NCBI GenBank assembly: GCA_006384855.1 | Contig: VCJN01002769.1 | Span: 661,125-725,124, forward strand | Direction of reading: 5' to 3' | DNA length: 64,000 bases | DNA from: Tetraselmis striata | Lineage: Eukaryota > Chlorophyta > Chlorodendrophyceae > Chlorodendrales > Chlorodendraceae | Shown here: one piece after another, positions 24,847-55,306 of the stretch | Position numbering within the stretch: position 1 is the first letter of the stretch | Layout: each line of letters begins with the position of its first letter | Program-made: the position numbers and the translations under genes | The notes under the pieces: generated by a model | Databases searched by the model: none | Seen by the model: the letters and a program-made list of their open reading frames with translations, nothing else | Told to the model about the DNA's origin: nothing

Positions 24847-25493
24847 TCCCGGCGCGTCGCGGGCATAAACTCACCGGGAGGACCTACAAACGGCTCGGCC
24901 GCAGGTCCGCGACGACGCGCGCGCGTAGTACCGGCACAACTCCGGACATAGTGGCGACGAAGAACACGAAGGGCTTAGATAGCAAGCCGTGGCTAGCCGG
25001 ATGGGCCCCAGTGGCGGTCTTGGTGGTTCTTGGCGGTGGGTGGGCCGGCTGATGATGGAAAGTTCGTGACAGCTCATGGGAATTTGAAAATGAACCCATC
25101 TCTCGGACCGTCCCACAACTTGACCAAGACAGTGCCAACTGACCAGTTTTCGGCCACTTCCACCGCCCCAGTCCTGTCCCATATGCCCTAGGGTTGGCCT
25201 CTAGGGTGTGTCCCCTGCTGTGTGCCCTAAGCATGACGCCATAGAGCCCCCCCCCCCCCCTTCTCAGGGTGATGGTAGCGGCTACTTGGTAGCGGGTGGC
25301 TACGTACACAAGGGACAGGTAGCGACGAACTGTTGTCGTTGGTCATCTCAGATATCGTCGCTCGACGAACCAACGTCACAGCTCTACGAGTACAGGTACG
25401 GCAGTATCGTACCTGCTTTCACAATATAGCTTTTGTAAGGATTTTATTCTGCTTTAATAAATGTAAGTGCGCACATGTTAATAAATGTTAACA
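24847..25493. other. No gene seen; AT-rich flank of the gypsy element
   Basis: Includes a 14-base poly-C run (25247-25260) and, from about 25460, TGTTAA/TTAACA-rich sequence with GTGCGCAC. The same words flank the other end of the gypsy element (37094-37155). Confidence 0.6.
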
Positions 25494-25550
25494 AATTGTC
25501 GCAGGAAAAAGAGAAATGGGGTGGTGATGGTAAACTGTCGGCGCCGCACT
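25494..25550 (-). repeat. Short repeat B2 of the gypsy element
   Basis: 57 bases identical to B1 (26605-26661). It lies at the outer 3' edge of the element, after A2. Confidence 0.9.
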
Positions 25551-26603
25551 GATCGCCTAACAGACTCTTAGGCATGTGGTCTTATGTACGTGTCCTGGCC
25601 TCTAAGTCTCTGTCTAAGACTTGCTGACTCTTGGCCTCGGTTCCTATGACTCCAGTAGAAGTACGTCTCACAGTGCCATCGGCCCTATTGGCCGGCACTA
25701 CACACGCGTGCGAGTTGCTTGGTTACTCGGCGTGACAGAGGTGTGTGTGTGTGTGGTCGATCGACGCGAAATACGTCAAGCACTCCTCACCCTGTGCCGC
25801 ACGACATGCCTCTCGCGAATGGACTACGAGTGCCCGCACGCGCGCATATGCGTACGCGTACGGTATCACGACTCGACTCGACGACGACGACGCGCAGTAC
25901 CGACTGCTCGCATATGGCAACAAGCAAGCCAGTGCTGATCAGGCACGATCGGTACGCTAATCGGTCGGTCGGTCGGTCGGTCGACAAGTCCAGGCAGTCG
26001 GTACGACGGGTTCACAGGAGGTAAAAGCAAGACGGGCGTCACGACGCAAACAACACAGGTGTAACCGCGACTCACCACCGTTGCTTGCTGCGCGATATCA
26101 CTCGCAGCTCGACAGCAGGTTGTACTGCCCTTGATGGACAGCAATAGACGAGGCACGTGCAGGTGTGATGTGCACAGAGTCGAGGTGTTTGTGGTGTAGT
26201 AGCGTGGTTACAAGATGGGTGGGATGAGACGTTTGGAAAGCCAAAGAGTGGGCGGGCAGCGCGCCGACAGGATGCTAAAGCATCCCGCGGGCGCGCGAGC
26301 CGACTAAGCCCCTAGGCCTTCCCACGCGCTATTGGTCTGCACGGGCGCCGTGGTTGGCGGCAGTTAGCCGTTGGTACGGGCCCTAGGTCTGTCGGTGGTT
26401 CTAGGTGTGAGAGCTGAGCGACAGACAGTTGGTCGTTGCGCCATGGGTGACTGCTCGCTTGGACATCAGGCATACACATACAACGCAGTACTGCAAGTAC
26501 TAAAATTGATACCCGTATGACAGGCGACGAGTATTCGCCGGTATGCCAAGTAAGCAAGTCCCCGTACGCGCGCATGCGTACGCTGAAACGTTGTACGCTG
26601 TGA
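25551..26603 (-). repeat. Long terminal repeat A2 (3' copy)
   Basis: 1053 bases matching A1. Contains a GT microsatellite, a run of TCGG units, and the site (26231-26251) complementary to the putative primer-binding site. Confidence 0.95.
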
Positions 26604-26604
26604 C

Positions 26605-26661
26605 AATTGTCGCAGGAAAAAGAGAAATGGGGTGGTGATGGTAAACTGTCGGCGCCGCACT
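26605..26661 (-). repeat. Short repeat B1 of the gypsy element
   Basis: 57 bases between the polypurine tract and A2. Its position next to the tract marks it as the first part of the 3' LTR. Confidence 0.9.
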
Positions 26662-26666
26662 GCATA

Positions 26667-26679
26667 CTCCCCCCCACTC
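26667..26679 (-). promoter_or_regulatory. Polypurine tract (plus-strand DNA primer)
   Basis: In sense direction reads GAGTGGGGGGGAG just before TATGC and the B1 repeat. This is the expected place for the polypurine tract that primes second-strand DNA synthesis. Confidence 0.65.
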
Positions 26680-26796: not shown

Positions 26797-29700
26797 TCAG
26801 CGGCGTAGTGGCGGCGCGCAGTCCGGGCATAGCCACTCCTCGCCAGGATGTAACTCTGCCTTGGCGCACGCCACATGCCACATGGCTTGGCACTTGTCAC
26901 AGATGAGTCGTGGGGCTGCAATGCTGTCGCTGCCACAGCCTTTGCATGCTGGCATGCCGCGGCCGTACCGCGCCGGCACAAGGTTGGACAAGTGGCACGG
27001 CGCGCAGTTGTCCATGTGCACTTGAATCTCGTTGCCATCGGATCCGGACAAACGCAGCCATCCGGACTCCAAGATCTCCACAACACGCAGGATGGTGCGA
27101 GCGGTACGGACGTCCAGGGTGTTGAGCGGGGGCTGCGCCACGTAGACGTAGCTGCCGATCTCGAAGCGGTGGCGCCGAGGCTGCACATCGCCGCGCCGAA
27201 CCTTGCGGTAGCGTACCACATCGCGCTGTTGAGCTTGCAGCGCCCTCTCGAATGCCTTAGGCATGGCAGCCCTCAGCATATCAGCCCGCTGTGTGATTAG
27301 GTTGATGACTGCAATGTCGTTGTCCATGTCGACCGGCTCCTCCAGTAGCGCGCGAACCTGGTCCGGTGCCACATGATCACGGCCAAACAGAAGAAAGTAC
27401 GGGCTGTAGCCGGTTGTTGCTTGCTTGCTGACACGATAGCCAAACTCGATCACTGGCATCCACGAGTGCCAAGAGGCAGTGCCGAGGGTTGGCACAACTT
27501 TCCGAAGTGCCACCTTCAAGACTTGAACGATGCGCTCGGCCATGCCATTGGCTTGGGGATGCCCTGGCGGAATGTCCACGGGCTGAATGCCATGGCGCTC
27601 CAACTGCTCGCGGAACGCGCCTTGGTATTCAGTGCCATTGTCTGTGACGACCTCCACTGGTGCTCCATAACGGGCCAACACGCGCTCATGGAACGCTTTG
27701 GCAGTCGTAGTCGCCTCGAGGTCGCGGGCAGGCACCAGCTCGATCCACTTGCTGAAGTGCTCCACGATGACGATCACGTACTTGTGGCCCTCGCTGCTAG
27801 TCGGCAGCGGTCCGGCTGAGTCCACGCTGAAGCGATAGAAGAGCCCAAACAGTGGCATGGGCTTGAGACGATCGTGCTTCTGGTTGAACGACGCTTTGAC
27901 GCGATCGCAGGCGCGGCACTGCTTGACCATGGCGCCGACGTCTTTGTGCATGCCCGGCCATACAAAGTGGCGGGCCAACACTTGGTAAGTGCGGTCCCGG
28001 CCAAGGTGGCCGATGCTGGCGTGCACTCGGCGAATCGCGTCCGGTCGCTCTTCAGGCTTGGGCACCTCACGGGCAGTGTCTCCAGTGTGCAGCCACACCT
28101 TGTCGTTGTGCCAGCTGTACTTGGCGCAGCGGCGCACAAGCTGCTGCCACACCTCCACTGACACGTCGGCTGGCGTGGTCTCACCTCGCAGGTAAGAGAT
28201 AGCCACTGGGCTGCTCCACACGTCCCGGGTAGGCCAATGAAGCTCCTGGCTAGCGTAGACACCTGCCGTGAAGGCCATTGCGATACACTGTGTTGCAAAC
28301 GCTGCGTGTGCCGAGGGTAGCGCGGGCGTCCTTCCAAGGCACTTGCTGGGTGAGCAGCCACCAAACATAGCCGACGCATCCGCCATCGCGGCTGGCGACC
28401 TCCTCTGAGTGGCGATTGCAGTGGCGGTGCCGGCGGCTTCCGAGGTGGCCCTTACTGGCTCCGCTGGCATTGGACGCCGACTGAGCAAGTCCGGCACGGT
28501 GTTGTCCTTGCCCGGACGGTGCTTGATACTGAAGTCGTACTCCGCAAGGATGAGGCTCCACCTAGCAAGCTTGCCTCGCAGCCTTGCTGTAGTCCGCAGC
28601 CACTCCATGGCCTTGCAGTCAGTGATGAGCTGGAAGTGGTTGCCATACAGGTAGTAGCGGAAGCGTTGAACAGCCCACACGACTGCGCCGACCTCTCCCT
28701 CGTAGCTAGACAGGTCTGCCTCCACTGGGGTGTTCATGCGCGACGCAAAAGACACGGCATACTCCACGCCATTGTCGTCCACCTGCGAAAGGCACGCTCC
28801 TACTCCAGCTCGGGACCAATCGGTGTGCAGCACAAACGGGCGACGCCAATCAGGATGGCGCAGCACCGGCGCCGAAACCAGCATGGCCTTGATGGCGTCG
28901 AAGGATTGCTGCTCGGCTGCGCCCCATTTCCACGGCGCATCCTTCTTGGTCAACGCTGTCAAAGGTGCCTTCACAAGCGAGAAGCTCTCCAAGAAACGGC
29001 AGTAGTAGGTGGCCATCCCGAGGAAATGGCGCACATCACTGACATTCTTCGGCGCCGGAAGAGAGTTGATGGCCTCCACCTTGTCAGCCATAGGCTCCAC
29101 GCCTGCACCGCTGACAATATGACCAAGAAAGGTCACCCGTGACAGTCCGAGCCGTGTCTTGGGTGGAGAGACCTGCACTCCCCGGGCCTTGAGTCGATCA
29201 AACACAATGCGCACACGGCGCATGTGCTGCTGCTCATCGTCATGACTGAAAATCAGTACATCGTCCGCGAAGGCGACTGCGAAGTCCAAACCAGCGAGCG
29301 CTTGATCCACAACGCGCTGCCATGCTGCCACGCAGTTCTTGTGTCCGAAGGGCATGCGTTTGAAGGTTAGCAGCCGATTGCCTGCATGGAACGCGAGGCG
29401 TTGCTGCGCTGACAATCCATCGGGTCCGGACGGCTTATCCGACACTCGGCGCTGATGAAACGCCTTGGTGCAATCAGTCGCGGTGAATCGCGCAGCTCCC
29501 TCCATGCGCGTCATGAGCTCGTCCGCTGTCGGGCATGGGTATTGATCGCGGATGGTACGCTCGTTGAGCCCACGATAGTCCACCGCATAGCGAAGATCGG
29601 TCCAGGCGCCATGCTCGTCCTTCTTCGGCGCCACGATGACTGGTGCAGCATAAGGGCTCTCGATCTCGCCCACGATGCCTGCCTTCTCCAACTTCTTGAC

Positions 29701-30939
29701 CCAATCGTTAGCCCACTCTTGCTCTCGATGGGCAAGGTGATACTGGCGCTTGAAGACTGGGTTGTAGTCGACCAGCTGGAAGTCATAGGGCTCGGCGTCA
29801 ACGGCGCGCAAGTCGTCCAGACCCCACGCGTACCAACCCGGGTCTGAGTCCATAAGTGCTGCGAAGCCCTCCTTGTCCTTCCAATCTGCCGATATCGCCC
29901 AGTGATGAGGCTGCTTGGAGTCCTTGGGGTTGATGAGCTTGCTCGTTACCTTCACCGTTGGGGATTCCTTACCGAGATGCTTCTCGTTGGCGTATGCGGC
30001 ATAGCACTTCACGAGAGCTGCCTGGCTGCGTCGACTCCATCCGTCCGCTGCAGCTTTGTCGTCAACACCGTCCACATGTGATGTGGCCCACGCAGGACGC
30101 TCTTGCGCTCCACCAAAGACATCTGCCATCAGTCCAGCGCCAGCACGCGAACCGACGCCAGCGGCGACGAAGCACGCGGGGCCCAAAAGGGCTAGCCACA
30201 TCAGAAGTGTCAACGCCGCGCTGACAGTCTTGCGTCCGGTAGCAGCTCTACCACGACGGGGTCTTGGTTTGGCAGCCTTGTGATCGCCGGCAACAACTCG
30301 GGCTGTGTGGTCAGCTGCCAACACACGGCGCCGAGCCTTGGCGACCTCCCGCTCCGTCGCTCGAGTCGCTTGGCGCTGCTCCTCCAGCCAACGGCGCCCC
30401 GCCTTGGTCACTCGCGCTGCTGTGCGTGGGTTGTCAGGAGGTTTCACTCTAGTACCTTGTTTGAGGGTAGCCATGTTGATGGCATGCTCCATCTCTGCCT
30501 CCACGGCGGCAGCCGTTGAGCGGCGGAGCTCGTGCTGTGCGGCGCGCAGCTCTTGCGTGTCGACCAAATGATCTTCAACTGCTGCGCCGGCAGGGGCGTC
30601 CTTCTCAATCGTTGCTGCACAAACAGCTTGCAGCATATGTTGATGTCTGCGCTCATGCGCATAGGCGACAGCACACCGGTTCATGACCGACACCGACGTC
30701 GGCGCACAAACATTTCCGATGGCAATCACCATCTCCTCCTCAGAAAAGCCTAGCTCCTGCCGGGTGTAGAAGCCAGCATAGTCTCCGTCGAGAAGGCACG
30801 CCTCACGCATGACGGCTGATGACGGACGGTATTGCGGCGGGTCAATGCCGACAACCTCCACCATTCCTGAGCCGGGCGCCCCCCCCAGGTCGGAGGCGCT
30901 GCGTCCGCGTGTTGGGCGTGCTGACTGACTTGGGCGCAT
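26797..30939 (-). CDS. Gypsy Pol: RT, RNase H, integrase, C-terminal PHD finger (1380 aa)
   Basis: ATG at 30939, TGA at 26797. Residues 1-330 are charged and partly coiled-coil, with a hydrophobic stretch near 238-262 (TLLMWLALLGPACFVAAG). RT: YAVDYRGLNERT, FTATDCTKAFHQ, catalytic FADD near residue 555. RNase H begins near 700 with FVLHTDWS (Asp), then YEGE and TDCKA. Integrase: zinc-binding HHCC region, then catalytic Asp in VDSAGP (about 1037), Asp in TDNGTEY (about 1095) and Glu in NGMAERIVQ (about 1131). In place of a chromodomain the last 55 residues hold a C4HC3 PHD finger (CKGCG, CDKCQAMWHVAC, CPDC), a module that often reads histone H3 tails. The ORF overlaps the upstream ORF by 98 bases in the +1 frame, so +1 frameshifting or re-initiation is likely. 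Confidence 0.93.
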   Translation of the reverse strand: MRPSQSARPTRGRSASDLGGAPGSGMVEVVGIDPPQYRPSSAVMREACLLDGDYAGFYTRQELGFSEEEMVIAIGNVCAPTSVSVMNRCAVAYAHERRHQHMLQAVCAATIEKDAPAGAAVEDHLVDTQELRAAQHELRRSTAAAVEAEMEHAINMATLKQGTRVKPPDNPRTAARVTKAGRRWLEEQRQATRATEREVAKARRRVLAADHTARVVAGDHKAAKPRPRRGRAATGRKTVSAALTLLMWLALLGPACFVAAGVGSRAGAGLMADVFGGAQERPAWATSHVDGVDDKAAADGWSRRSQAALVKCYAAYANEKHLGKESPTVKVTSKLINPKDSKQPHHWAISADWKDKEGFAALMDSDPGWYAWGLDDLRAVDAEPYDFQLVDYNPVFKRQYHLAHREQEWANDWVKKLEKAGIVGEIESPYAAPVIVAPKKDEHGAWTDLRYAVDYRGLNERTIRDQYPCPTADELMTRMEGAARFTATDCTKAFHQRRVSDKPSGPDGLSAQQRLAFHAGNRLLTFKRMPFGHKNCVAAWQRVVDQALAGLDFAVAFADDVLIFSHDDEQQHMRRVRIVFDRLKARGVQVSPPKTRLGLSRVTFLGHIVSGAGVEPMADKVEAINSLPAPKNVSDVRHFLGMATYYCRFLESFSLVKAPLTALTKKDAPWKWGAAEQQSFDAIKAMLVSAPVLRHPDWRRPFVLHTDWSRAGVGACLSQVDDNGVEYAVSFASRMNTPVEADLSSYEGEVGAVVWAVQRFRYYLYGNHFQLITDCKAMEWLRTTARLRGKLARWSLILAEYDFSIKHRPGKDNTVPDLLSRRPMPAEPVRATSEAAGTATAIATQRRSPAAMADASAMFGGCSPSKCLGRTPALPSAHAAFATQCIAMAFTAGVYASQELHWPTRDVWSSPVAISYLRGETTPADVSVEVWQQLVRRCAKYSWHNDKVWLHTGDTAREVPKPEERPDAIRRVHASIGHLGRDRTYQVLARHFVWPGMHKDVGAMVKQCRACDRVKASFNQKHDRLKPMPLFGLFYRFSVDSAGPLPTSSEGHKYVIVIVEHFSKWIELVPARDLEATTTAKAFHERVLARYGAPVEVVTDNGTEYQGAFREQLERHGIQPVDIPPGHPQANGMAERIVQVLKVALRKVVPTLGTASWHSWMPVIEFGYRVSKQATTGYSPYFLLFGRDHVAPDQVRALLEEPVDMDNDIAVINLITQRADMLRAAMPKAFERALQAQQRDVVRYRKVRRGDVQPRRHRFEIGSYVYVAQPPLNTLDVRTARTILRVVEILESGWLRLSGSDGNEIQVHMDNCAPCHLSNLVPARYGRGMPACKGCGSDSIAAPRLICDKCQAMWHVACAKAELHPGEEWLCPDCAPPLRR

Positions 30940-33900
30940 AAATCATGCGCCGACCGGCAACGTTGAGCCCCCCCAGCAGTGTGCCTGGGCGTGTGGGCGT
31001 CGCCACTTGAGCGCGAAGCAGCCCACCGCCGCAACGCTCCACAATCTGCGCGTAGGTCTCGCGAGGCGGCCGCTCAAACTCGTGTTGCACAGCCTGGTAG
31101 TAGTGCTGAGTGAAGGTGTTGGTCCACCACAAAGCAGAGCGAAGAGAGGCGTCTCCGCATTTGTGGGCATGATGCGCGTTGGGCTCGCCAAAGACACGGG
31201 CCATGAAGTCGATGAACTCCTGCACCTCAGGGCTGCGCCGGCTCGGCGCAGCCGGTATCACGTTCTCGATAACGTATCCATACTGCGCGGGAGCAGCCCA
31301 GTACTCCTTGACGCCTCGTGCCTTGGCCAACATGCAGTTGAGCTCGCTCATCGCCTCTGCCAACGGGACTATCACTCCAGTACGCGCACCACGTAGTCCA
31401 TGCTGAGTGCCCATCGATGACACGTCCTGACAGGGCGGCTCAGCGCGTAGCTCGTCCAGCTCCGGCAGGTGCCTCAGGATGGCTGGTGCTGTGATGTGCT
31501 CCACGTCATGCTCCAACTCGTCGCTAAGAGTGAAGCACTTCTCGAACGCATTGCGGGGAAGTTGCACGGGCCACCGCTGATGCATCCACTCAAGCTGTCG
31601 CAGCAGGCGCTGCCGATGAGCCACGCTCCGGAGCATACGATCCACGATCTGTATCAGCTCATAGTGGTACCCGTCGACGAGGTTGGTGAACAACACTGAC
31701 AGCATGCCAGCGAACAAGAAGAGCCCTTGCTTGGCGCGTCCCTCCTTGCCTCCGGTCCGGTCGAGGTCGATGATGTAGGTCAGCTCCGGCGTCGAATGCG
31801 GCACGGCGCGCACGAGCGCCAAACGCTCCAGTGTGTGGCCGCTCAAGTGCAGCCGTCCGGCGGCTTGACGCAGCCTCCGGAGCTCCCTCCAGCCCGGTAT
31901 CTCGTCCTCATGTTCCTTCAATGGCATTGCAGTGCCATCCTCCAGCTCCTCATCGTCTGATGGGCAGTCATGCTCCTGCAGATTGTCGGCGCCGGGGCCC
32001 TCCGCGCGCAGGGCGTAACACGCGCCCGCGGCCAGTGGTTCGCTATCAAGCGTTGTTTCGACCTCCGGCTCCATCTGTGTCATGATGGTGAGCTCCACAT
32101 AGACATCGTCATCATCGCTGGAGTCCTCCATCAGGTCCGGCAGCTCCTCGTAGACATCGACATCATCGCTGGAGTCCTCCACCAGGCCCGGCAGCTCCTC
32201 ATCGCTATCAGAGTCGACGTCCATGGGACTGGCGCGCAGGGTGAAGCATGACGCAATGACGTTGGCAACATGGTCGGGCACTTCCTCTACCCAACATGGC
32301 ACAAAATCCTCCTCGCCATCTGAGTCGGCTACAAGCTCCGGTAGCTCAGCGTCGTCGTCCTGCTGCTCCAGCTGCACTGCAGCGTCGGCGCCCACGTTGT
32401 CCGGTTGCAGCTCGATCCGGCTGTTGAAGGAGAATGAAGAGGTCAGGTTGGCTGCGGCATCGGGCTCCTCCCCCCCCCCAACTCCTGACGGCAGTCCGGG
32501 AGATGGGCCGTCCGATGCCAACACGGCCAGCGTTGCGTGCGGCAGCCTGCGCGGGACTTGGAGCTTGGGCATGTTGTGATGCTTCAGCGGCACATCGACG
32601 TGGCGGCTGAGATCGTGGGGATCTGGGCGGTATGAGGCAGTATGCCCCCCCACATCGATGACCATGCCAAGGTGTGCCATGACGGATGTGCACAAGATGA
32701 CATCTGGAAGATGATCGCCTTCGAGAATGGCGAACGATGGCCACTCAAACTTGCGCTCCCAATCAGTGTCCGGGTTGATCACGTAGGAGATGCGCCCCAC
32801 AAGGCGCTGCATCTCCATCTTGCCGCCAATGCCTTGCATGGACATGGACTGCAGCGTGGCGTCCGCCTCGCCCGGCTTCATGCGATCCACCACGCGCCGG
32901 TGCACACCGCTGTAGTCACAGCCGGTGTCTAACAAGGCCATCAGGATGCGCACGCCGCCAATGACGATGACGGTCAACTTGCAGTCCACGTAGAAAGCAC
33001 TGTGGCGGTCATACTCCGGGTAGTCAGGGTATGCGCTGCGCTGCACCTCTCGCAACTGTTGAAGTTCCGAAGATGTCGCTGACAGTTGGCGTCGAGACTC
33101 CAGAGGCTTGACGCCATGTTGCACCACGTCCACTGGATGAATGTTGGCTTGGGGCTCCGCTGATGGCAAGGACAGTGGCGGGACACTGACGCGTGGGAGA
33201 GACAGACCATAGACGCTCTGCACGGCTGCGGCAAAGACGCGCGTCAAGTCGAGGTGCGTGTAGTCAACCCAGGTGAGCCGCGCTGTCGCCTCGAAGCGTC
33301 GGACGGCTTGCTGAAGCACCGTCTCCCATGCCACGGCCATGTGGTCACGAGTGTCAAGTCCTCCACGCAGTGCAGTGTTGCGTGCCTCCAACCACCTTGC
33401 AGCATGCTCGGGTGTCATGTCCGATACTACAGCAACGGGTAGACCAGGGAACTTGGCGTGTTGTAGCGCTGTGCGCAGGTGCTGCAGGAGCTGCTGATTG
33501 CGGATGTCCAACATGTCCGAGGTGATCGCTCCTCCTGCCCGGCGGCCCTCGTAGGACGCAGGAGCCTCCTGCTCGACTGCCGGCTCAAAGCCTTGGGGCC
33601 GCTGCTTGGTGAGTTGCTCGCGTTGGGCGTCCCATCCGGGTTGGCGCATGCGAAGTTCAGGGTTCCGCGCCGATCCTGGAGGCAGCACTGCCGGGCGTCC
33701 ACGCGGTCTTGGCACAGTCGACTCCGGCGTCCAGTCAGCTCCCACAGGCTGCGCACGACCTGGAGCTCCAAAGAAGACTTCACGCAGCTCACGCACGGGC
33801 AGCTCCACACACGAAGCTCCATGTAGCAAAGTGCCGTGATCTTCGGTGTCAACGCAATCCAGAAAGGGGTCTGGCACCTCCACGGCCAAGCGCATGGCAC

Positions 33901-35650
33901 CCGTAGCACCATGGGCAGCTTGAGACTTCTCGAGGACGCGAGAGAACATGGCCTCCAGGTCTGCCATTGTTGATGATGTCGCCGCTCCGTCAACATGGGC
34001 GTCGTGTCGCCCAGTGAGCATGTGTCCGGCTTTCCTCGCCAAGTCCATCTCGAGCTTGGACAGTCCGGTCTCCACGTCCATAGCCCATCCGCGTTGCTGT
34101 CCATAGGCAAGGCGGCGCTCTCGCTCCCGCTGGTTGCGCTTCAGTCGTGCGATGAGCGTAGGGTCAGTGATTGGCTTGTCGCACTCAGTAAAGTTATGAG
34201 CGCCGTCGCACCCAGCGTTCCAGCACGGTCCTCGTCCGCCTCCGGGTGCGCCTCCATCGCCGCGTCCACCGCCATGACCACCACGGCCACCTCGGCCTGC
34301 GCCTCGGCCGCCTCCACGGCCGCCACGGCCACCAGCGGCGTCGTTGACATACATGGTTGAGCCGAACTTGTTGACACAGTCTCGGTAGTTGGCTCCGTGA
34401 AAGATGTCACGTCCACGCGCCTTTGTGCATGCCTCGCACAACGGGCGGATCTGGTGGGTGTCCTTCACGACGACAAGCTGCGCTCGCACACGACGTCCGT
34501 TGACCATGGTCCATGTGATGACCGGTTCTGGAGTGCTGGTGCCGTGCTGCCGTCCTCCACCAGCTGCCTGCGCCGATGCTCCAGTCAGTTCTGCGAAGTG
34601 TTGGGCAGCCGTCAAGGCCTCCGCCATTCGAATCTCATCCTTCCTCACGATGTCCTCATAGCGCTCCACCTCCGCAGCTAGCTCGTCCAAGCGGTCCTCA
34701 TGAGACTGACGTAGAACAGCGATGTCCTTGAGCTGGTGGAAGCCAGCGTCGAGGGACTGCTTGAGCGCCGGAATAGAGCGCCACACAGAGGTCATGACGT
34801 CGAACGCTTTCTGGTTGACCTTGTCCCACGTGAGGTCTGGTAGATGCGCCTTGAGCTCGCGAAGAGTCATCGCCAAGCTGGCAGGGGTCTCGCGGAAGCC
34901 CTCACGGGTGTAGGCGTCGTACCTAGTGCGCATCTTCGGCGCCTCATTGAACTTGGTCTCAAAGAGCTCCACGTAGCGTCGATAGCGGAACTCATGAAAG
35001 GCGTCCGCATCCTCGCGCGATGGCACTCTAATGCGTCCGGATGCAGGGTCGAAGCGGAGAGTTCGTTGTTGATAGCGTAGAGTGTCCTTCTGCCATTGAT
35101 CGATGATGGGCCTGGTGACGGCGTTGATCTCGACATACTCTTGAAGAAGCTGAAGGGAGTCTGCTGGGCTGAACACCCACTCTGGTCCGGTGCTCTCGCC
35201 CTCCAATGAACCAGCTCCGTCAGCCCTCGGGGCTGATCTTGGTGGCGCCTTGTTAAGCGCGTATGGCACCAACACGTTGGCGTTGAATGAACTGAACCAC
35301 TCCGTCCATATTGAGGTAGCGCCGTCGAAGCGCTCATGGCGTGGTGTTGTCTCCTTGCGTAGACCACCGGCGATTGTCCGCGCGTCTTCTCGCTCCTCGT
35401 AGATGCGCTCCTCCGCTGCACTCAGGTCACCCATGATCTGATTGGGCGTGTAGTGCTGACTTCCGGGTGGTCGTCGTCTTGATGGTGTTCCAGATCCTAC
35501 TGCGCTGGGATCTCCACTGCGTTGCGCCATGGCGTCACGGAGCGCTTGACGCAAGACGCGCTCCGGCTCCAATAAGGGTGCTGCCACAGGTGCTCCGGTA
35601 CTCCTCGTGAAGCGTCGTCTGAGTTGGCGCGGGCTCTCTCCCTCTGACAT
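30842..35650 (-). CDS. Gypsy Gag-protease-C5 methyltransferase polyprotein (1602 aa)
   Basis: ATG at 35650, TGA at 30842. Residues 1-430 are Gag-like and rich in charge and helices. A Gly/Arg-rich stretch (about 435-470) precedes a zinc-knuckle variant C-x4-C-x3-H-x4-C (near 473). A retropepsin follows with ALLDTGCDYSGV near 902. An acidic linker has repeated ELPxL-EDSSDD units (about 1145-1185). The C-terminal part (about 1290-1560) resembles a cytosine-5 DNA methyltransferase: motif I-like LFLFAGMLSVLF (1307), catalytic PPCQ (1403) followed by GLRGARTG, motif VI YVIENV (1458), and SLRSALWWTN (1506) like motif VIII of DRM/DNMT3-type enzymes. If active it would methylate cytosines, possibly on the element's own DNA. 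The motif I third glycine is Leu, so activity is not certain. Confidence 0.85.
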   Translation of the reverse strand: MSEGESPRQLRRRFTRSTGAPVAAPLLEPERVLRQALRDAMAQRSGDPSAVGSGTPSRRRPPGSQHYTPNQIMGDLSAAEERIYEEREDARTIAGGLRKETTPRHERFDGATSIWTEWFSSFNANVLVPYALNKAPPRSAPRADGAGSLEGESTGPEWVFSPADSLQLLQEYVEINAVTRPIIDQWQKDTLRYQQRTLRFDPASGRIRVPSREDADAFHEFRYRRYVELFETKFNEAPKMRTRYDAYTREGFRETPASLAMTLRELKAHLPDLTWDKVNQKAFDVMTSVWRSIPALKQSLDAGFHQLKDIAVLRQSHEDRLDELAAEVERYEDIVRKDEIRMAEALTAAQHFAELTGASAQAAGGGRQHGTSTPEPVITWTMVNGRRVRAQLVVVKDTHQIRPLCEACTKARGRDIFHGANYRDCVNKFGSTMYVNDAAGGRGGRGGGRGAGRGGRGGHGGGRGDGGAPGGGRGPCWNAGCDGAHNFTECDKPITDPTLIARLKRNQRERERRLAYGQQRGWAMDVETGLSKLEMDLARKAGHMLTGRHDAHVDGAATSSTMADLEAMFSRVLEKSQAAHGATGAMRLAVEVPDPFLDCVDTEDHGTLLHGASCVELPVRELREVFFGAPGRAQPVGADWTPESTVPRPRGRPAVLPPGSARNPELRMRQPGWDAQREQLTKQRPQGFEPAVEQEAPASYEGRRAGGAITSDMLDIRNQQLLQHLRTALQHAKFPGLPVAVVSDMTPEHAARWLEARNTALRGGLDTRDHMAVAWETVLQQAVRRFEATARLTWVDYTHLDLTRVFAAAVQSVYGLSLPRVSVPPLSLPSAEPQANIHPVDVVQHGVKPLESRRQLSATSSELQQLREVQRSAYPDYPEYDRHSAFYVDCKLTVIVIGGVRILMALLDTGCDYSGVHRRVVDRMKPGEADATLQSMSMQGIGGKMEMQRLVGRISYVINPDTDWERKFEWPSFAILEGDHLPDVILCTSVMAHLGMVIDVGGHTASYRPDPHDLSRHVDVPLKHHNMPKLQVPRRLPHATLAVLASDGPSPGLPSGVGGGEEPDAAANLTSSFSFNSRIELQPDNVGADAAVQLEQQDDDAELPELVADSDGEEDFVPCWVEEVPDHVANVIASCFTLRASPMDVDSDSDEELPGLVEDSSDDVDVYEELPDLMEDSSDDDDVYVELTIMTQMEPEVETTLDSEPLAAGACYALRAEGPGADNLQEHDCPSDDEELEDGTAMPLKEHEDEIPGWRELRRLRQAAGRLHLSGHTLERLALVRAVPHSTPELTYIIDLDRTGGKEGRAKQGLFLFAGMLSVLFTNLVDGYHYELIQIVDRMLRSVAHRQRLLRQLEWMHQRWPVQLPRNAFEKCFTLSDELEHDVEHITAPAILRHLPELDELRAEPPCQDVSSMGTQHGLRGARTGVIVPLAEAMSELNCMLAKARGVKEYWAAPAQYGYVIENVIPAAPSRRSPEVQEFIDFMARVFGEPNAHHAHKCGDASLRSALWWTNTFTQHYYQAVQHEFERPPRETYAQIVERCGGGLLRAQVATPTRPGTLLGGLNVAGRRMIYAPKSVSTPNTRTQRLRPGGGARLRNGGGCRH
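32098..32215 (-). repeat. In-frame acidic repeat in the gypsy polyprotein
   Basis: Two near-copies of a unit encoding ELPxL-EDSSDD-DVY, with a third related unit nearby (about 32325-32345), between protease and methyltransferase. It looks like an expanded acidic linker. Confidence 0.75.
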
Positions 35651-36017: not shown

Positions 36018-36038
36018 CCACTCTTTGGCTTTCCAAAC
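36018..36038 (-). promoter_or_regulatory. Candidate self-primer binding site
   Basis: Lies immediately after the 5' repeat A1, where a primer-binding site belongs. In sense direction it reads GTTTGGAAAGCC and onward, and over 21 bases it is the exact complement of 36741-36721 inside A1. No match to the usual initiator-tRNA site (TGGTA...) is seen. Confidence 0.6.
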
Positions 36039-37093
36039 GATCGCCTAACAGACTCTTAGGCATGTGGTCTTATGTACGTGTCCTGGCCTCTAAGTCTCTG
36101 TCTAAGACTTGCTGACTCTTGGCCTAGGTTCCTATGACTCCAGTAGAAGTACGTCTCACAGTGCCATCGGCCCTATTGGCCGGCACTACACACGCGTGCG
36201 AGTTGCTTGGTTACTCGGCGTGACAGAGGTGTGTGTGTGTGTGTGGTCGATCGACGCGAAATACGTCAAGCACTCCTCACCCTGTGCCGCACGACATGCC
36301 TCTCGCGAATGGACTACGAGTGCCCGCACGCGCGCATATGCGTACGCGTACGGTATCACGACTCGACTCGACGACGACGACGCGCAGTACCGACTGCTCG
36401 CATATGGCAACAAGCAAGCCAGTGCTGATCAGGCACGATCGGTACGCTAATCGGTCGGTCGGTCGGTCGGTCGACAAGTCCAGGCAGTCGGTACGACGGG
36501 TTCACAGGAGGTAAAAGCAAGACGGGCGTCACGACGCAAACAACACAGGTGTAACCGCGACTCACCACCGTTGCTTGCTGCGCGATATCACTCGCAGCTC
36601 GACAGCAGGTTGTACTGCCCTTGATGGACAGCAATAGACGAGGCACGTGCAGGTGTGATGTGCACAGAGTCGAGGTGTTTGTGGTGTAGTAGCGTGGTTA
36701 CAAGATGGGTGGGATGAGACGTTTGGAAAGCCAAAGAGTGGGCGGGCAGCGCGCCGACAGGATGCTAAAGCATCCCGCGGGCGCGCGAGCCGACTAAGCC
36801 CCTAGGCCTTCCCACGCGCTATTGGTCTGCACGGGCGCCGTGGTTGGCGGCAGTTAGCCGTTGGTACGGGCCCTAGGTCTGTCGGTGGTTCTAGGTGTGA
36901 GAGCTGAGCGACAGACAGTTGGTCGTTGCGCCATGGGTGACTGCTCGCTTGGACATCAGGCATACACATACAACGCAGTACTGCAAGTACTAAAATTGAT
37001 ACCCGTATGACAGGCGACGAGTATTCGCCGGTATGCCAAGTAAGCAAGTCCCCGTACGCGCGCATGCGTACGCTGAAACGTTGTACGCTGTGA
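36039..37093 (-). repeat. Long terminal repeat A1 (5' copy)
   Basis: 1055 bases, near-identical to A2. In sense direction a CCAAT motif (36825-36821) stands about 80 bases before the segment at 36741-36721. That segment may lie at or near the transcript 5' end if the element self-primes as Tf1 does. Start-site placement is inference. Confidence 0.9.
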
Positions 37094-37511
37094 AAAAATG
37101 TTAAAAATGTTAACAAATGTTAACAAATGTTAAGTGCGCACATGTTAACAAATGTAGTGCGCTTTTCTGAAAGCCCTGATGTAATTTAATTTATCTTAAC
37201 AAAGCACTGACGTAAGAAAAGTACGGTACCTGCTGTAAATCCCTAGGTCATCGCTGCGGCGGGCGGGTGCTACAGCAGGGGCGGGTACCGTACCGGTACC
37301 GTGTGTCGCTGCCGGTAGGCGTAAAACACTTATTCTTATCTGTCGCGACTCCCGTGGGATTCGTACCAGCAGCAGTAACTCGGCGACCACGACGCTTTTC
37401 TTCTCCTGAGCTACTTGTTTGGGCGGACCCTTCGTGCCAGCAGGCGGAAGCGGTCGTGTACCTGGAATAGCAGTCACCGACTCGCCGCCCCGGTGCGCCT
37501 CGACGGCCGCG

Positions 37512-46510: not shown

Positions 46511-46621
46511 TACCCGTAATCCGGACAGGCGGCCTATTAGGCGAGCTAGGACCAACCCATCTATCCGCGCGTCGGCCCATATTTATTTCAGATCCACATT
46601 CAAGTCGCGACGTACCCGGTG

Positions 46622-46630
46622 ATACCGAAT
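46622..46630 (+). repeat. 9-bp target site duplication, left
   Basis: ATACCGAAT, repeated at 54034-54042 on the other side of the 7.4-kb element. Confidence 0.8.
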
Positions 46631-46644
46631 GGGAATGGGACAAG

Positions 46645-46715
46645 ATACTAGCGTAAACGGTAGAGGCCACTATACTTCACTTATGACTCACTGAAAATGG
46701 GACAATTTACTAGCT
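46645..46715 (+). repeat. Terminal inverted repeat, left (71 bp)
   Basis: Identical to the reverse complement of 53949-54019. It starts ATACTAGCGTAAACGG and ends TTTACTAGCT. Confidence 0.95.
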
Positions 46716-47371: not shown

Positions 47372-50300
47372 TCAGGCCTCCCTACTAAATGGCGGTTTTT
47401 GTATGCCTCGGCGCACGAGATGAAGAGGGCTACAGCATCCCCAGTAGAAGAGCAACACGATTGTGCCTCGGTGGGCGCTGACAGCGGGCAGGCCGATGTC
47501 CGCGCCGGAGGGCATGAACACCAACGACTGCGTGGCGGGCATCATCGACTCACCGAGTTGGAGGAAAGATTGAGCCTTCTGTATGATCTCGTTGAAGACG
47601 TGTTGGAGCTCCCTGTAGAGATGTAGGCCATCTTCCGTATCTAGCAGAACAATGCGCAGCGACTCCTCCAGGGAATTCGGCACTTGGCAGCGGGGGTCTT
47701 CAGGCCCTGAAATCAAGGACGGTCATCAATCGACTGAGGAATTTACCTGCATGTATTATTGGAGTGGGACCACGTTGGGGGGGGAGGGGGGGGGTTGGGG
47801 GGGGGGGTGGGGGGGGGGGGGGCTCGCCTAAAAGGTGCATGAGCATCTGGCTCCGGTCTCCAATTCGAATGAGAGGACTCCTCTCGCCGGCGAGGAAGAA
47901 GTCGGGGCAAGTGAGCAGCAAGTGAGTCTGCAACGTCGCCATCTTCGTGCCGAGTTCTTCGTCGACTACGAAGCTGAGTTGCTTCCTAGCTAAAAAATCG
48001 GCGTTCCCCACAGCGCGCTGCAGGAAAGGTTCTTGCCTGGGCGGCGCAGTCTTGGCACCCTGAGTAGCCGATCTGACACGACACCTGGGGTCGACGAGGT
48101 CTCGACGGTTAGCAGTTGAAACAGACAACCGAGGAGTAGTATTGTGTCGCGCGACGAGGTTGGCTGCCCTGAATGGAAACCGCGAGTCCTCGGCTCCTGT
48201 TGGCGTCGGCGCCCGCACAGTCGACGCACTCGCAAGCCCAATTGTGTGTGTCGCAGCCGCTTCGGCTGTACCCGGCTTTGCCGCGGTCCTGGGTTTACCC
48301 GCCGTCGCCTGTGCCCTAGGCAAGAGACGCTCACCCTGGGGACGGCTGCGTGCTCCTTTTTGGCCCCAACGCGGAGGAGCCGGTAAGCTTGTATGTAGAT
48401 CGGAAGAGCCCCCGGCGGGCCGAGGGACATGCGAAGAAGTGCGCACCGACGGCGTGTCACCCGCCATGCGGGTCCCACGGGCTCGAAGGCTCCGCGCCGG
48501 CGGGTCCTGTATAGGTTGAGACGCCTTACGCTTCGGCCGAGGCTGAAAGTCGTCCTCAGCGTCCTCGTTGGCTGAATTAGCGAGACGACGTGATGTAGTC
48601 CGAGCGCTCACAAATGCCGGGTTATGCTTGCACGGTTGCCTTTGCCCACCCTTCATGCCCTGACAAAGCGCGGAAGTCTTACATACAGCTTAAAATGATG
48701 AGTGACGGGCAACGGCACAAATCACGTACACACCTTTTGTTGTGTAAGTTTGGCGAGCATCTCTGCAGTTTTGCTCTGTTTCGGGCGACGGGGTGCGTCG
48801 CTCGGGGCAGCCTCTGCGCTCGGGGTCTGCGGGGGCAACGTGCGACGGCGACTAAATTAGCATGCCGTAAAAGTAACTCGTGCGCAGCGGCAACAAAGGT
48901 GCAGCGCGGGCATCTCACCTTGGCGACAGCCGGCGCCACTGTCGATGCGGGCTTCGGCTCGGCAGCAAACACGGGAGGGGGTGCGCCGCTCGGACCAGCT
49001 CCTGCGCTCGGGGTCTGCGGGGGGGCAACGTGCGATGGCGAATCATTAAGCATGCCGTAAAAGTAACTCGTGCGCAGCGGCAACAAAAGGTGCAGCGCGG
49101 GCATATCACCTTGGCGACAGCCGGCGCCACTGTCGATGCGGGCTTCGGATCGGCAGCAAACACGGGAGGGGGTGCGCCGCTCGGACCAGCACCTGCGCTC
49201 GGGGTCTGCGGGGGGGCAACGTGCGATGGCGACTCATTAAGCATGCCGTAAAAGTAACTCGTGCGCAGCGGCAACAAAAGGTGCAGCGCGGGCATCTCAC
49301 CTTGGCGACAGCCGGCGCCACTGTCGATGCGGGCTTCGGCTCGGCAGCAAACACGGGAGGGGGTGCGCCGCTCGGACCAGCTCCTGCGCTTGGGGTCTGC
49401 GGGGGGCAACGTGCGATGGCGACTCATTAAGCATGCCGTAAAAGTAACTCGTGCGCAGCGGCAACAAAAGGTGCAGCGCGGGCATCTCACCTTGGCGACA
49501 GCCGGCGCCACTGTCGATGCGGGCTTCGGATCGGCAGCAAACACGGGAGGGGGTGCGCCGCTCGGAGCAGCTCCTGCGCTCGGGGTCTGCGGGGGGCAAC
49601 GTGCGATGGCGACTCATTAAGCATGCCGTAAAAGTAACTCGTGCGCAGCGGCAACAAAAGGTGCAGCGCGGGCATCTCACCTTGGCGACAGCCGGCGCCA
49701 CTGTCGATGCGGGCTTCGGCTCGGCAGCAAACACGGGAGGGGGTGCGCCGCTCGGACCAGCACCTGCGCTTGGGGTCTGCGGGGGGCAACGTGCGATGGC
49801 GAATCATTTAGCATGCCGTAAAAGTAACTCGTGCGAAGCGGCAACAAAAGGTGCAGCGCGGGCATCTCACCTTGGCGACAGCCGGCGCCACTGTCGATGC
49901 GGGCTTCGGCTCGGCAGCAAACACGGGAGGGGGTGCGCCGCTCGGACCAGCACCTGCGCTTGGGGTCTGCGGGGGGCAACGTGCGATGGCGACTCATTAA
50001 GCATGCCGTAAAAGTAACTCGTGCGCAGCGGCAACAAAAGGTGCAGCGCGGGCATCTCACCTTGCCGACAGCCGGCGCCACTGTCGATGCGGGCTTCGGC
50101 TCGGCAGCAAACACGGGAGGGGGTGCGCCGCTCGGAGCAGCTCCTGCGCTCGGGGTCTGGGGGGGGCAACGTGCGATGGCGAGTAAATTAGCATGCCGTA
50201 AAAGTAAGTGGTGCGCAGCAGCAACAAAGGTGCACGCGAATAGATGCGTGTCGAGTTGTAAACACACCTGTTCAAGTCGAGGAGGCGTTGGTGATCGGGG

Positions 50301-53948: not shown

Positions 53949-54019
53949 AGCTAGTAAATTGTCCCATTTTCAGTGAGTCATAAGTGAAGTATAGTGGCCT
54001 CTACCGTTTACGCTAGTAT
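53949..54019 (-). repeat. Terminal inverted repeat, right (71 bp)
   Basis: Exact inverted copy of 46645-46715. Confidence 0.95.
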
Positions 54020-54033
54020 ATTGCGCTTTTCTC

Positions 54034-54042
54034 ATACCGAAT
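54034..54042 (+). repeat. 9-bp target site duplication, right
   Basis: ATACCGAAT, as at 46622-46630. Confidence 0.8.
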
Positions 54043-55306
54043 CACTGCGTCTTTATTTACTACGAGAGGAGGCAGTACCGGTACGAATATGCAGTGACGA
54101 CCAAGCTCTCACGGCCCAGCCGGTCTTGAACCGCCGACTTACATATTCGTAGTCACTAGGGGGCCTTCGCAACTTTGGGTAGTCAAGGATTGAACCAAAC
54201 TTTGGTTCAACATATTATCGTGCCACGTCGTGCGCGGGTCTAGTCCGCATGTAATCGTTACGATCGCCTCAGTCCGTTCGATCTGCTTGCATCACCCGCC
54301 CCTCAGGAAGCTTCTCGTCCAAGGCCGGGGCGAGCTTCCGTCGTTTCCCCTAAACTTCTTCCTAAGCCCCCCATTGGCTCCGAACTTGTTCGCATGCTTC
54401 CAGAACTCGCAGATACGGGCAGCGTCTGTGACGTGCGGCATCGTTGAGATCCAACGTGGGTTCGAATCCCACCGTCGCTTCCACTCCGTGGGCGACACTT
54501 CTTTAGCTGCACATCCTCCCCAACCAAAGACTCGGAGCCCGTGTCCGACGTAGCGGGAGCGTTACCATGCGGCATGTCGTAGAGGTGTGGGCCAGTTTGG
54601 TGGACGCGGCTGCGGGCGGGCTGTGTGAGATGGCGCGAGCTGCGGCAGGCCGCAGCACGATGCACCCTCCACCGTCTCTGGCCCACACGTCGTAGCCTCA
54701 CCCGGAGCTGTACTCGCTCGTAGCCCCGCCACCGCCGCGACAGTACCAGTACCAGTACGACTATTTTGCCGCTGCGCTAAAAACACGGACGATTTCTTCC
54801 CTCAAATCTTTGATCCCAACTAACTTCATTTGTGGACCCAAGTTGGGGAAGATTGGACCAACATCTTCGTCCAATCTTTGCGTACGCGAGGGTGTACGGG
54901 CTGATGTGTACCGCAGATTCTGACGTGTCGATCCGAAGTGTTGGTTTAAAGGTCGCGAAAGCCCCCTACTAGCTCTACAACTGATGAGCGCCCCAGTCAG
55001 CTAAAGTTCCCGGGCCAGATGGTCGGATCGACCAGCAGGAAACTTTTAAAAACAAGCTGAGGTCCTTATTGTAATAGTCGCTAAATATTGCTGCGCGGCG
55101 CATCACAACTCAAAGCTCACCTTTGCTCTTTTGCGGTTTGATGCGCGCGCGTGTGGGGGTAGCACAAAAATCTCGTTTATGTGGTGAAGAGCTGGCTTGA
55201 AGATATTCACTTGGCCACCTAGGCTACGAGACAAATTCATGGCTGTAGGGAAAATATAATCCACGTTTTTTCTATCCTGCTACAATTTTTTGGTGTACGG
55301 CCTTCC
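54043..55306. other. Gene-free spacer, AT-richer from about 54780
   Basis: Contains a tRNA-like 3' half at about 54440-54480 (a hairpin like a long variable arm, then a T-arm with GGTTCGAATCC) without a matching 5' half, and a 10-bp hairpin AAGATTGGAC/GTCCAATCTT at 54849-54878. No protein gene seen. Confidence 0.5.

Follow-up and report, generated by a model that had tools for sequence, protein, structure and literature searches.

A gypsy-type element with a methyltransferase-fold domain

The window analyzed here is a 64,000-nucleotide stretch of the genome of the green alga Tetraselmis striata (Chlorophyta, Chlorodendrophyceae; contig VCJN01002769.1, positions 661,125 to 725,124). A single retrotransposon occupies its minus strand from position 37093 to 25494, with two long open reading frames (ORFs) that overlap by 98 nt in different frames (Table 1). 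Together, ORF1 and ORF2 encode a polyprotein with the order gag, protease, methyltransferase, reverse transcriptase (RT), RNase H, integrase, and PHD finger. Pfam matches place RT, RNase H, and an rve integrase in ORF2, the Gypsy set of domains. Assignment to the DIRS retrotransposons was rejected because neither ORF has a Pfam match to a tyrosine recombinase and an rve integrase is found instead, and assignment to the LINEs was rejected because long direct repeats are present and neither ORF has a Pfam match to an endonuclease. An earlier note, made from the letters of this DNA alone, had described a chlorophyte gypsy element carrying a DNA methyltransferase (DNMT)-like domain between protease and RT, and this description is borne out by the domain order, the profile matches, and the predicted fold.

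Table 1. Features of the T. striata element, in window coordinates
Feature	Positions	Strand	Basis
Repeat A1, 5' LTR-like	36039..37093	-	99.7% identical to A2 over 1055 columns
22 nt adjoining A1, putative self-priming primer site	36018..36039	-	Exact reverse complement of a stretch within A (36720-36741, 26230-26251)
ORF1 (1602 aa) with gag-like region, retropepsin motif, acidic linker, and start of the methyltransferase	30842..35650	-	ORF list and sequence
Retropepsin motif LLDTGCD in ORF1	32915..32935	-	Sequence
C5-methyltransferase-fold domain, spanning ORF1 and ORF2 (approximate limits)	30646..31831	-	Profile matches, P0001 (ORF1) residues 1266-1587 and P0002 (ORF2) residues 18-212
Motif I, GLFLFAGMLSVLF	31688..31726	-	Sequence; Gly kept in 106/110 rows
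Motif IV PPCQ, catalytic Cys codon	31430..31432	-	Sequence and alignment
Motif VI YVIENV	31259..31276	-	Sequence and alignment
Motif VIII SLRSALWWTN, with Ala in place of the second RxR Arg	31118..31147	-	Alignment
ORF1/ORF2 overlap, frame change within the methyltransferase	30842..30939	-	ORFs, alignment of relatives, profile matches
ORF2, 1380 aa: methyltransferase end, RT, RNase H, integrase, PHD finger	26797..30939	-	ORF list and Pfam
Motif X AIGNVCAPTSV in ORF2	30691..30723	-	Sequence and profile match
Reverse transcriptase, PF00078	29113..29628	-	Pfam E=3.3e-17
RNase H, PF17917	28537..28851	-	Pfam E=9.7e-30
Integrase, H2C2 zinc domain and rve core	27556..28059	-	Pfam E=6.1e-17 and 1.2e-13
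C-terminal PHD finger of ORF2	26818..26946	-	18.9 bits, E=0.0016, under cut-off 24
Putative polypurine tract GAGTGGGGGGGAG, just upstream of B1	26667..26679	-	Sequence
Repeat B1, 58 nt, between internal region and A2	26605..26662	-	58/58 identical to B2
Repeat A2, 3' LTR-like	25551..26603	-	Self-comparison with A1
Repeat B2, 58 nt, outside A2	25494..25551	-	Sequence comparison

Curated profiles recognize the methyltransferase only faintly. PF00145 scores 13.3 bits in ORF1 and 16.1 bits in the counterpart piece of P0003, both under the gathering cut-off of 22, and TIGR00675 and phrog_363 match at E=0.027 and E=9.9e-5. A profile built from eight PF00145-type domains of relatives matches ORF1 with 67 bits. 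A profile of 94 domains from which the T. striata rows were left out, although its rows had been aligned jointly with them, matches both stretches listed in Table 1 (E=5e-68 in ORF1 and E=3e-14 in ORF2, with reference to a set of 152 proteins). The earlier note had looked to PF00145 and to the fold for confirmation; no PF00145 match exceeds the cut-off, and the methyltransferase fold is present. A structure model of the P0003 counterpart (residues 1234-1633; predicted local distance difference test score (pLDDT) 93.8, predicted template modeling score (pTM) 0.91) adopts this fold over the whole domain. Fold comparison and a 14-row profile favor DNMT3A/B, whereas an 8-row profile made from the T. 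striata subclade alone does not, its best match among solved structures being HhaI at E=0.033. A sequence search of the Protein Data Bank with the whole of ORF1 returned nothing relevant. Among viral proteins, a fold search gave 37 matches at E<=0.001 (best E=2.8e-10, 9-19% identity) that are mostly C5 methyltransferases where named, and a phage or giant-virus origin is neither favored nor dismissed by them. From the profiles and the model, the domain is a real, divergent member of the C5-methyltransferase fold (PF00145 superfamily), with catalysis as a prediction.

Because the ORF1 and ORF2 matches are contiguous in the profile (columns 26-322 and 320-452), the domain crosses the frame change and motif X falls in ORF2. 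A domain confined to ORF1 was accordingly rejected, since the match continues into ORF2. The frame-change point is read through in one frame in P0003 (a cluster of 58 members) and also, for example, in P0004 and P0008, and copies with a continuous domain therefore exist as gene models. The methyltransferase of the present copy is interrupted, and both a genuine change and an assembly error are possible. Introns inside the domain are predicted in some T. striata gene models; P0012, P0020, and P0021, for example, lack about 53 residues before 'MVEVVG'. These are probably gene-model artifacts, because sister polyproteins contain the absent stretch in conserved form.

The repeats of the element have the layout A1-coding-B1-A2-B2. 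A1 and A2 differ by one mismatch and two gap columns over their alignment, in agreement with a young copy and with the near-identical flanking repeats noted earlier. The polypurine tract precedes B1 rather than A2, and thus the functional long terminal repeat (LTR) is probably B+A. With such an LTR, the observed layout would match that of a circle in which two LTRs are joined and which is then cut open at the B/A border. The two 22-nt arms pair in a predicted RNA fold of 751 nt (z -6.3 against 20 shuffles), and we read this foldback as a putative self-priming site. Tf1 and its relatives are known to self-prime. A TGTTAACATTT-type repeat is shared by the two flanks (TGTTAACATTT/ATGTGCGCACTTA, window 25400-25493 and 37094-37180), so the element seems to be inserted in a satellite-like array.

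Several other parts of the polyprotein deserve mention. The Asp_protease_2 profile is weak in P0003 (E=0.2) and clearer in the relative P0064 (1.3e-5). The PHD finger exceeds the Pfam cut-off in seven of the nine relatives scanned, and in ORF2 itself it falls under it. Cysteines of the gag-like part at 34181-34225 resemble a zinc knuckle with the odd spacing C-x4-C-x3-H-x4-C, where the sister consensus is CWNCGxPxHxxxEC. The acidic linker of ORF1 holds two tandem 59-nt copies (32091-32200, 91.5% identical), to which P0005 seems to add an extra unit. Between the methyltransferase and RT, ORF2 residues 243-253 (window 30181-30213) and the relatives form a hydrophobic stretch resembling a membrane helix (LTLLMWLALLG...), which also appears in the sister-alignment consensus and is unusual within a pol polyprotein.

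Relatives, active site, and descent

A search with the domain region returned 17 proteins, up to 99% identical over most of the region and all from T. striata (jgi/Tetstr1), and a second search added 22 more, again all from T. striata, among the 7997 best word-sharing candidates scored. With the RT-integrase part of P0005 as the query, 208 proteins matched at E<=1e-10; of the best 120, which were used here, 29 have a precomputed PF00145 match in the same polyprotein. The set of 152 proteins comprises the two window ORFs, the 17 and 22 T. striata proteins, and 111 that were new among the best 120. Conservation was counted over the 111 of these 152 rows with at least 150 profile columns, including 16 from T. 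striata (ORF1 among them), and the other 41 were left uncounted. No DNA of related elements was found in scans of viral contigs or in one genome contig scan.

Identity of the domain to its counterparts in nine sister polyproteins is 29-50% over 376-389 of 392 positions. The corresponding values are 49-65% for RT, 16-39% for the protease, 13-21% for the acidic linker, 16-34% for the stretch after the domain, and 15-21% for gag (eight rows, as P0047 lacks gag). The methyltransferase is therefore the second best kept of the seven stretches measured, after RT, as judged by protein conservation rather than by substitution rates (Ka/Ks). RNase H and integrase stand outside this comparison because P0003 ends before them. 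Retention in many related elements suggests that the domain helps the element to replicate or to survive in its host.

Of the 111 rows, 108 keep the catalytic Cys, 107 the ENV Glu, 108 the first motif VIII Arg, and 109 the Trp that follows it; the motif X Gly is kept in 103 of 107. All 16 T. striata rows keep the Cys, as the earlier note expected of other copies, and also the Glu; 15 keep the first Arg of motif VIII. The second is Ala in all 16, so that the two-arginine RxR signature is absent. A subclade of 35 rows, made up of the 16 T. striata rows and 19 sister rows picked by RT-integrase likeness and tree, repeats this pattern: Cys is kept in 35, Glu in 35, Asn in 34, and the first Arg in 34, whereas the second Arg is Ala or Ser in every row. 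Outside the subclade, 72 of 76 rows keep it. A second Trp directly precedes the shared one throughout the subclade, compared with 7 of the 76 rows elsewhere. Known enzymes use both motif VIII arginines to contact the target base. Judged from the alignment, the replacement of RxR by RxA/S is a systematic change and not random decay, and its uniformity is the main reason for restraint regarding enzyme activity. Because RxR is not kept, we call the domain a divergent relative of known enzymes with predicted activity; identity to the catalytic domain of DNMT3A/DNMT3B is 12-13% in the matches.

Descent was examined with quick IQ-TREE trees that carry only approximate likelihood ratio (SH-aLRT) support. 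The RT-RNase H tree has 103 rows, with three T. striata copies kept and with P0042 and rows whose best RT stretch is <200 columns excluded (hence the absence of P0059 and P0061 from the trees), and the methyltransferase tree has 89 rows, the degenerate P0066 being excluded. On the RT tree, 95 rows form one group (SH-aLRT 100), set apart from an outgroup of 8 rows that lack the domain, six of them from Cordylochernes scorpioides; the outgroup is small because relatives were sampled by how closely their RT-integrase part resembles that of the T. striata element. T. striata falls in a 20-row clade (support 100). Among the 95 grouped rows, 90 carry the domain and 5 lack it or have part of it. In 31 of these 90 rows the domain comes before RT (class A, to which the window element and the Klebsormidium nitens protein KFL_009030040, or P0102, belong), and in the other 59 it comes after RT (class B, with rows from Haematococcus lacustris, Tetrabaena socialis, and Chlamydomonas eustigma). 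The full set of 111 rows divides into 41 of class A, 65 of class B, and 5 with no RT; the class B domain sits between RNase H and integrase in 64 of 65, with P0060 as the exception.

Domain position requires one change on either tree if the domain-less rows are excluded, and six changes on the RT tree if 'none' is a third state. Mantel correlations between the two trees are 0.82 (89 rows), 0.88 within class A, and 0.42 within class B, each exceeding all 999 permutations. P0102 belongs to the 95-row RT group and to the class A side of the methyltransferase tree (support 96), although its inner placement is not settled by quick trees. On the methyltransferase tree the long branches of P0108 and P0142 come together, P0102 is one of several rows with an odd composition, and support values from quick trees are less trustworthy.

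Because both trees describe one lineage, they favor one older acquisition over a separate one in Tetraselmis. The 'further acquisition' envisaged in the earlier note thus gives way to a placement with the K. nitens protein and other green-algal proteins. The data are better explained by a single, older acquisition that was then inherited, with one relocation within the polyprotein and some loss; the outgroup is thin. Retroelement-borne cytosine methyltransferases have been described as independent acquisitions in dinoflagellates and one charophyte (de Mendoza et al. 2018, PMC5890265). The published K. nitens acquisition may be part of the same event.

Possible roles of the domain

Taken as a whole, the best explanation, in which we place about half of our confidence, is a recently moved Ty3/gypsy-type element from a widespread methyltransferase-bearing lineage that includes the K. 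nitens element, with a methyltransferase that would mark the element's own new DNA. It seems reasonable to speculate that the protease would cut the polyprotein, and that the methyltransferase would be released or packaged in the particle with RT. Most likely, it would then methylate new element DNA, or an intermediate, before integration, and the pre-marked copy might enter the genome to be handled as self or quietly silenced. With its 22-nt foldback the element would prime its own minus-strand synthesis, and opening of a joined circle of two B+A LTRs at the B/A border might give rise to the A-coding-B-A-B form.

Several observations weigh against this explanation. In addition to the altered motif VIII, which might mean that catalysis is changed or lost, P0077, P0097, and P0103 lack the domain by Pfam and profile (P0118 by profile only), so the domain is not indispensable. 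The first three are RT-RNase H-integrase-PHD proteins without a methyltransferase. The class B proteins P0089, P0096, and P0106 keep the domain without its catalytic Cys, perhaps as a natural loss of activity, and with the domain-less proteins they indicate that loss happens. These three form one clade on the RT tree, and P0106 is from T. socialis. When used as a query, the domain itself reached T. striata proteins only (17 of 17 and 22 of 22), and RT-integrase was needed as a query to reach the wider family. The repeat layout was seen here in one copy, and no target-site duplication is evident at its flanks. CpG depletion was not seen as a footprint of methylation (observed/expected 1.00 in the element versus 0.97 in the window), a result that neither proves nor excludes control by the element over its own methylation. 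TpG and CpA reach 1.32-1.38 in the ORFs versus 1.12-1.19 in the flanks, a difference that codon use may explain. Finally, the KnitGypsy DNMT gave no methylation in a yeast assay that its authors call inconclusive (PMC5890265). Both SymbioDIRS-Dnmt3 domains tested in yeast methylated CG (PMC5890265).

A rather unlikely alternative is that the methyltransferase is dead or weak and is kept to bind DNA or hybrids, for example as a nucleic-acid chaperone or, with the PHD finger, as an integration guide. The uniform RxA/S change with its additional Trp, the sub-threshold Pfam score, and the three Cys-less class B rows would all suit such a role, but a pure binder would need none of the Cys, Glu, Asn, and first Arg that the subclade keeps almost without exception.

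It is unlikely that an active enzyme works in trans on host chromatin, reshaping the host methylome or silencing competitors and viruses instead of marking its own DNA. The PHD finger could bring products to chromatin, and an antiviral role has been proposed for accessory methylase domains (PMC6338049). However, a domain encoded in pol and flanked by protease and RT would be expected to travel in the particle, and nothing here ties it to host loci.

We think it very unlikely that the Tetraselmis lineage acquired its domain independently. This view could draw on the poor match of the subclade alone to solved structures and on the domain-less rows that sit inside the lineage, but the K. nitens protein and other class A rows have the domain in the same position, the RT and methyltransferase trees agree, and its position needs a single change per tree once domain-less rows are excluded. 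Chance resemblance or a degraded pseudo-domain, for which the sub-threshold Pfam match and the frame change in this copy might speak, is negligible, and a chance motif match was rejected, in view of the 94-domain profile match (E=5e-68), the confident fold model and its fold matches, and the conserved active site.

Among known systems, the closest is KnitGypsy-Dnmt3 of K. nitens, which shares the Gypsy domain composition, a DNMT within pol, and the A-coding-B-A-B repeats (PMC5890265), and whose product we take P0102 to be. P0102 carries its domain upstream of RT and groups with the T. striata element. The latter differs in its chlorophyte host, its methyltransferase under the Pfam cut-off, its RxA/S motif VIII, the frame split of this copy, and its C-terminal PHD finger; no such finger was detected in P0102, a protein with a partial annotation. 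SymbioDIRS-Dnmt3 of Symbiodinium, for which the A-coding-B-A-B layout was described, likewise has a Dnmt3-like domain in pol and a proposed role in methylation of complementary DNA, but it uses a tyrosine recombinase where the T. striata element has a DDE (rve) integrase (PMC5890265). SymbioLINE-Dnmt is also a retroelement with its own DNMT, yet it is a LINE without LTRs and its DNMT is of an orphan lineage (PMC5890265). The class B elements share the RT group and the methyltransferase and differ in where the domain lies.

The general statement that green algae have retrotransposons with adenine or cytosine methylases is already in print (PMC6338049). Our literature search found no Tetraselmis or chlorophyte gypsy DNMT in titles or abstracts, with subscription journals and preprints mostly not covered. 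As far as these searches show, two findings appear to be new: a chlorophyte subclade that scores under the Pfam cut-off and has a distinctive motif VIII, and the membership of the K. nitens element in a wide lineage with two architectures. That gypsy lineage, with members in Tetraselmis, Klebsormidium, Haematococcus, Tetrabaena, and C. eustigma, carries the domain with its Cys nearly always intact. The published survey counted PF00145 domains, according to the legend of its Fig. 1a (PMC5890265), and a survey of that kind would miss the Tetraselmis subclade because it falls under the cut-off. Natural losses, active-site changes, and two domain positions within one lineage make the benefit of a DNMT to a retroelement testable by comparison.

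Perhaps the element combines these features in a hybrid life cycle: a gypsy element with a DDE integrase, foldback self-priming, and an LTR-LTR circle opened inside the LTR would use an active site rebuilt (RxA/S plus one more Trp) to suit a particular substrate, for instance an RNA:DNA hybrid, single-stranded complementary DNA, or the circle. Its methyltransferase would have been acquired once, before the chlorophyte/streptophyte split or with later spread between the two groups. This fuller reading is improbable; if true, the domain would be among the longest-kept retroelement DNMTs known.

Elsewhere in the window

Beyond the element, seven tandem copies of a 190-nt unit lie at 48830-50270, and ORFs of 318 and 477 aa beside this array have no Pfam match at E<=0.01. 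Two 102-nt arms of an inverted repeat (46614-46715 and 53949-54050), 89% complementary and 7.2 kb apart, perhaps delimit another mobile element.

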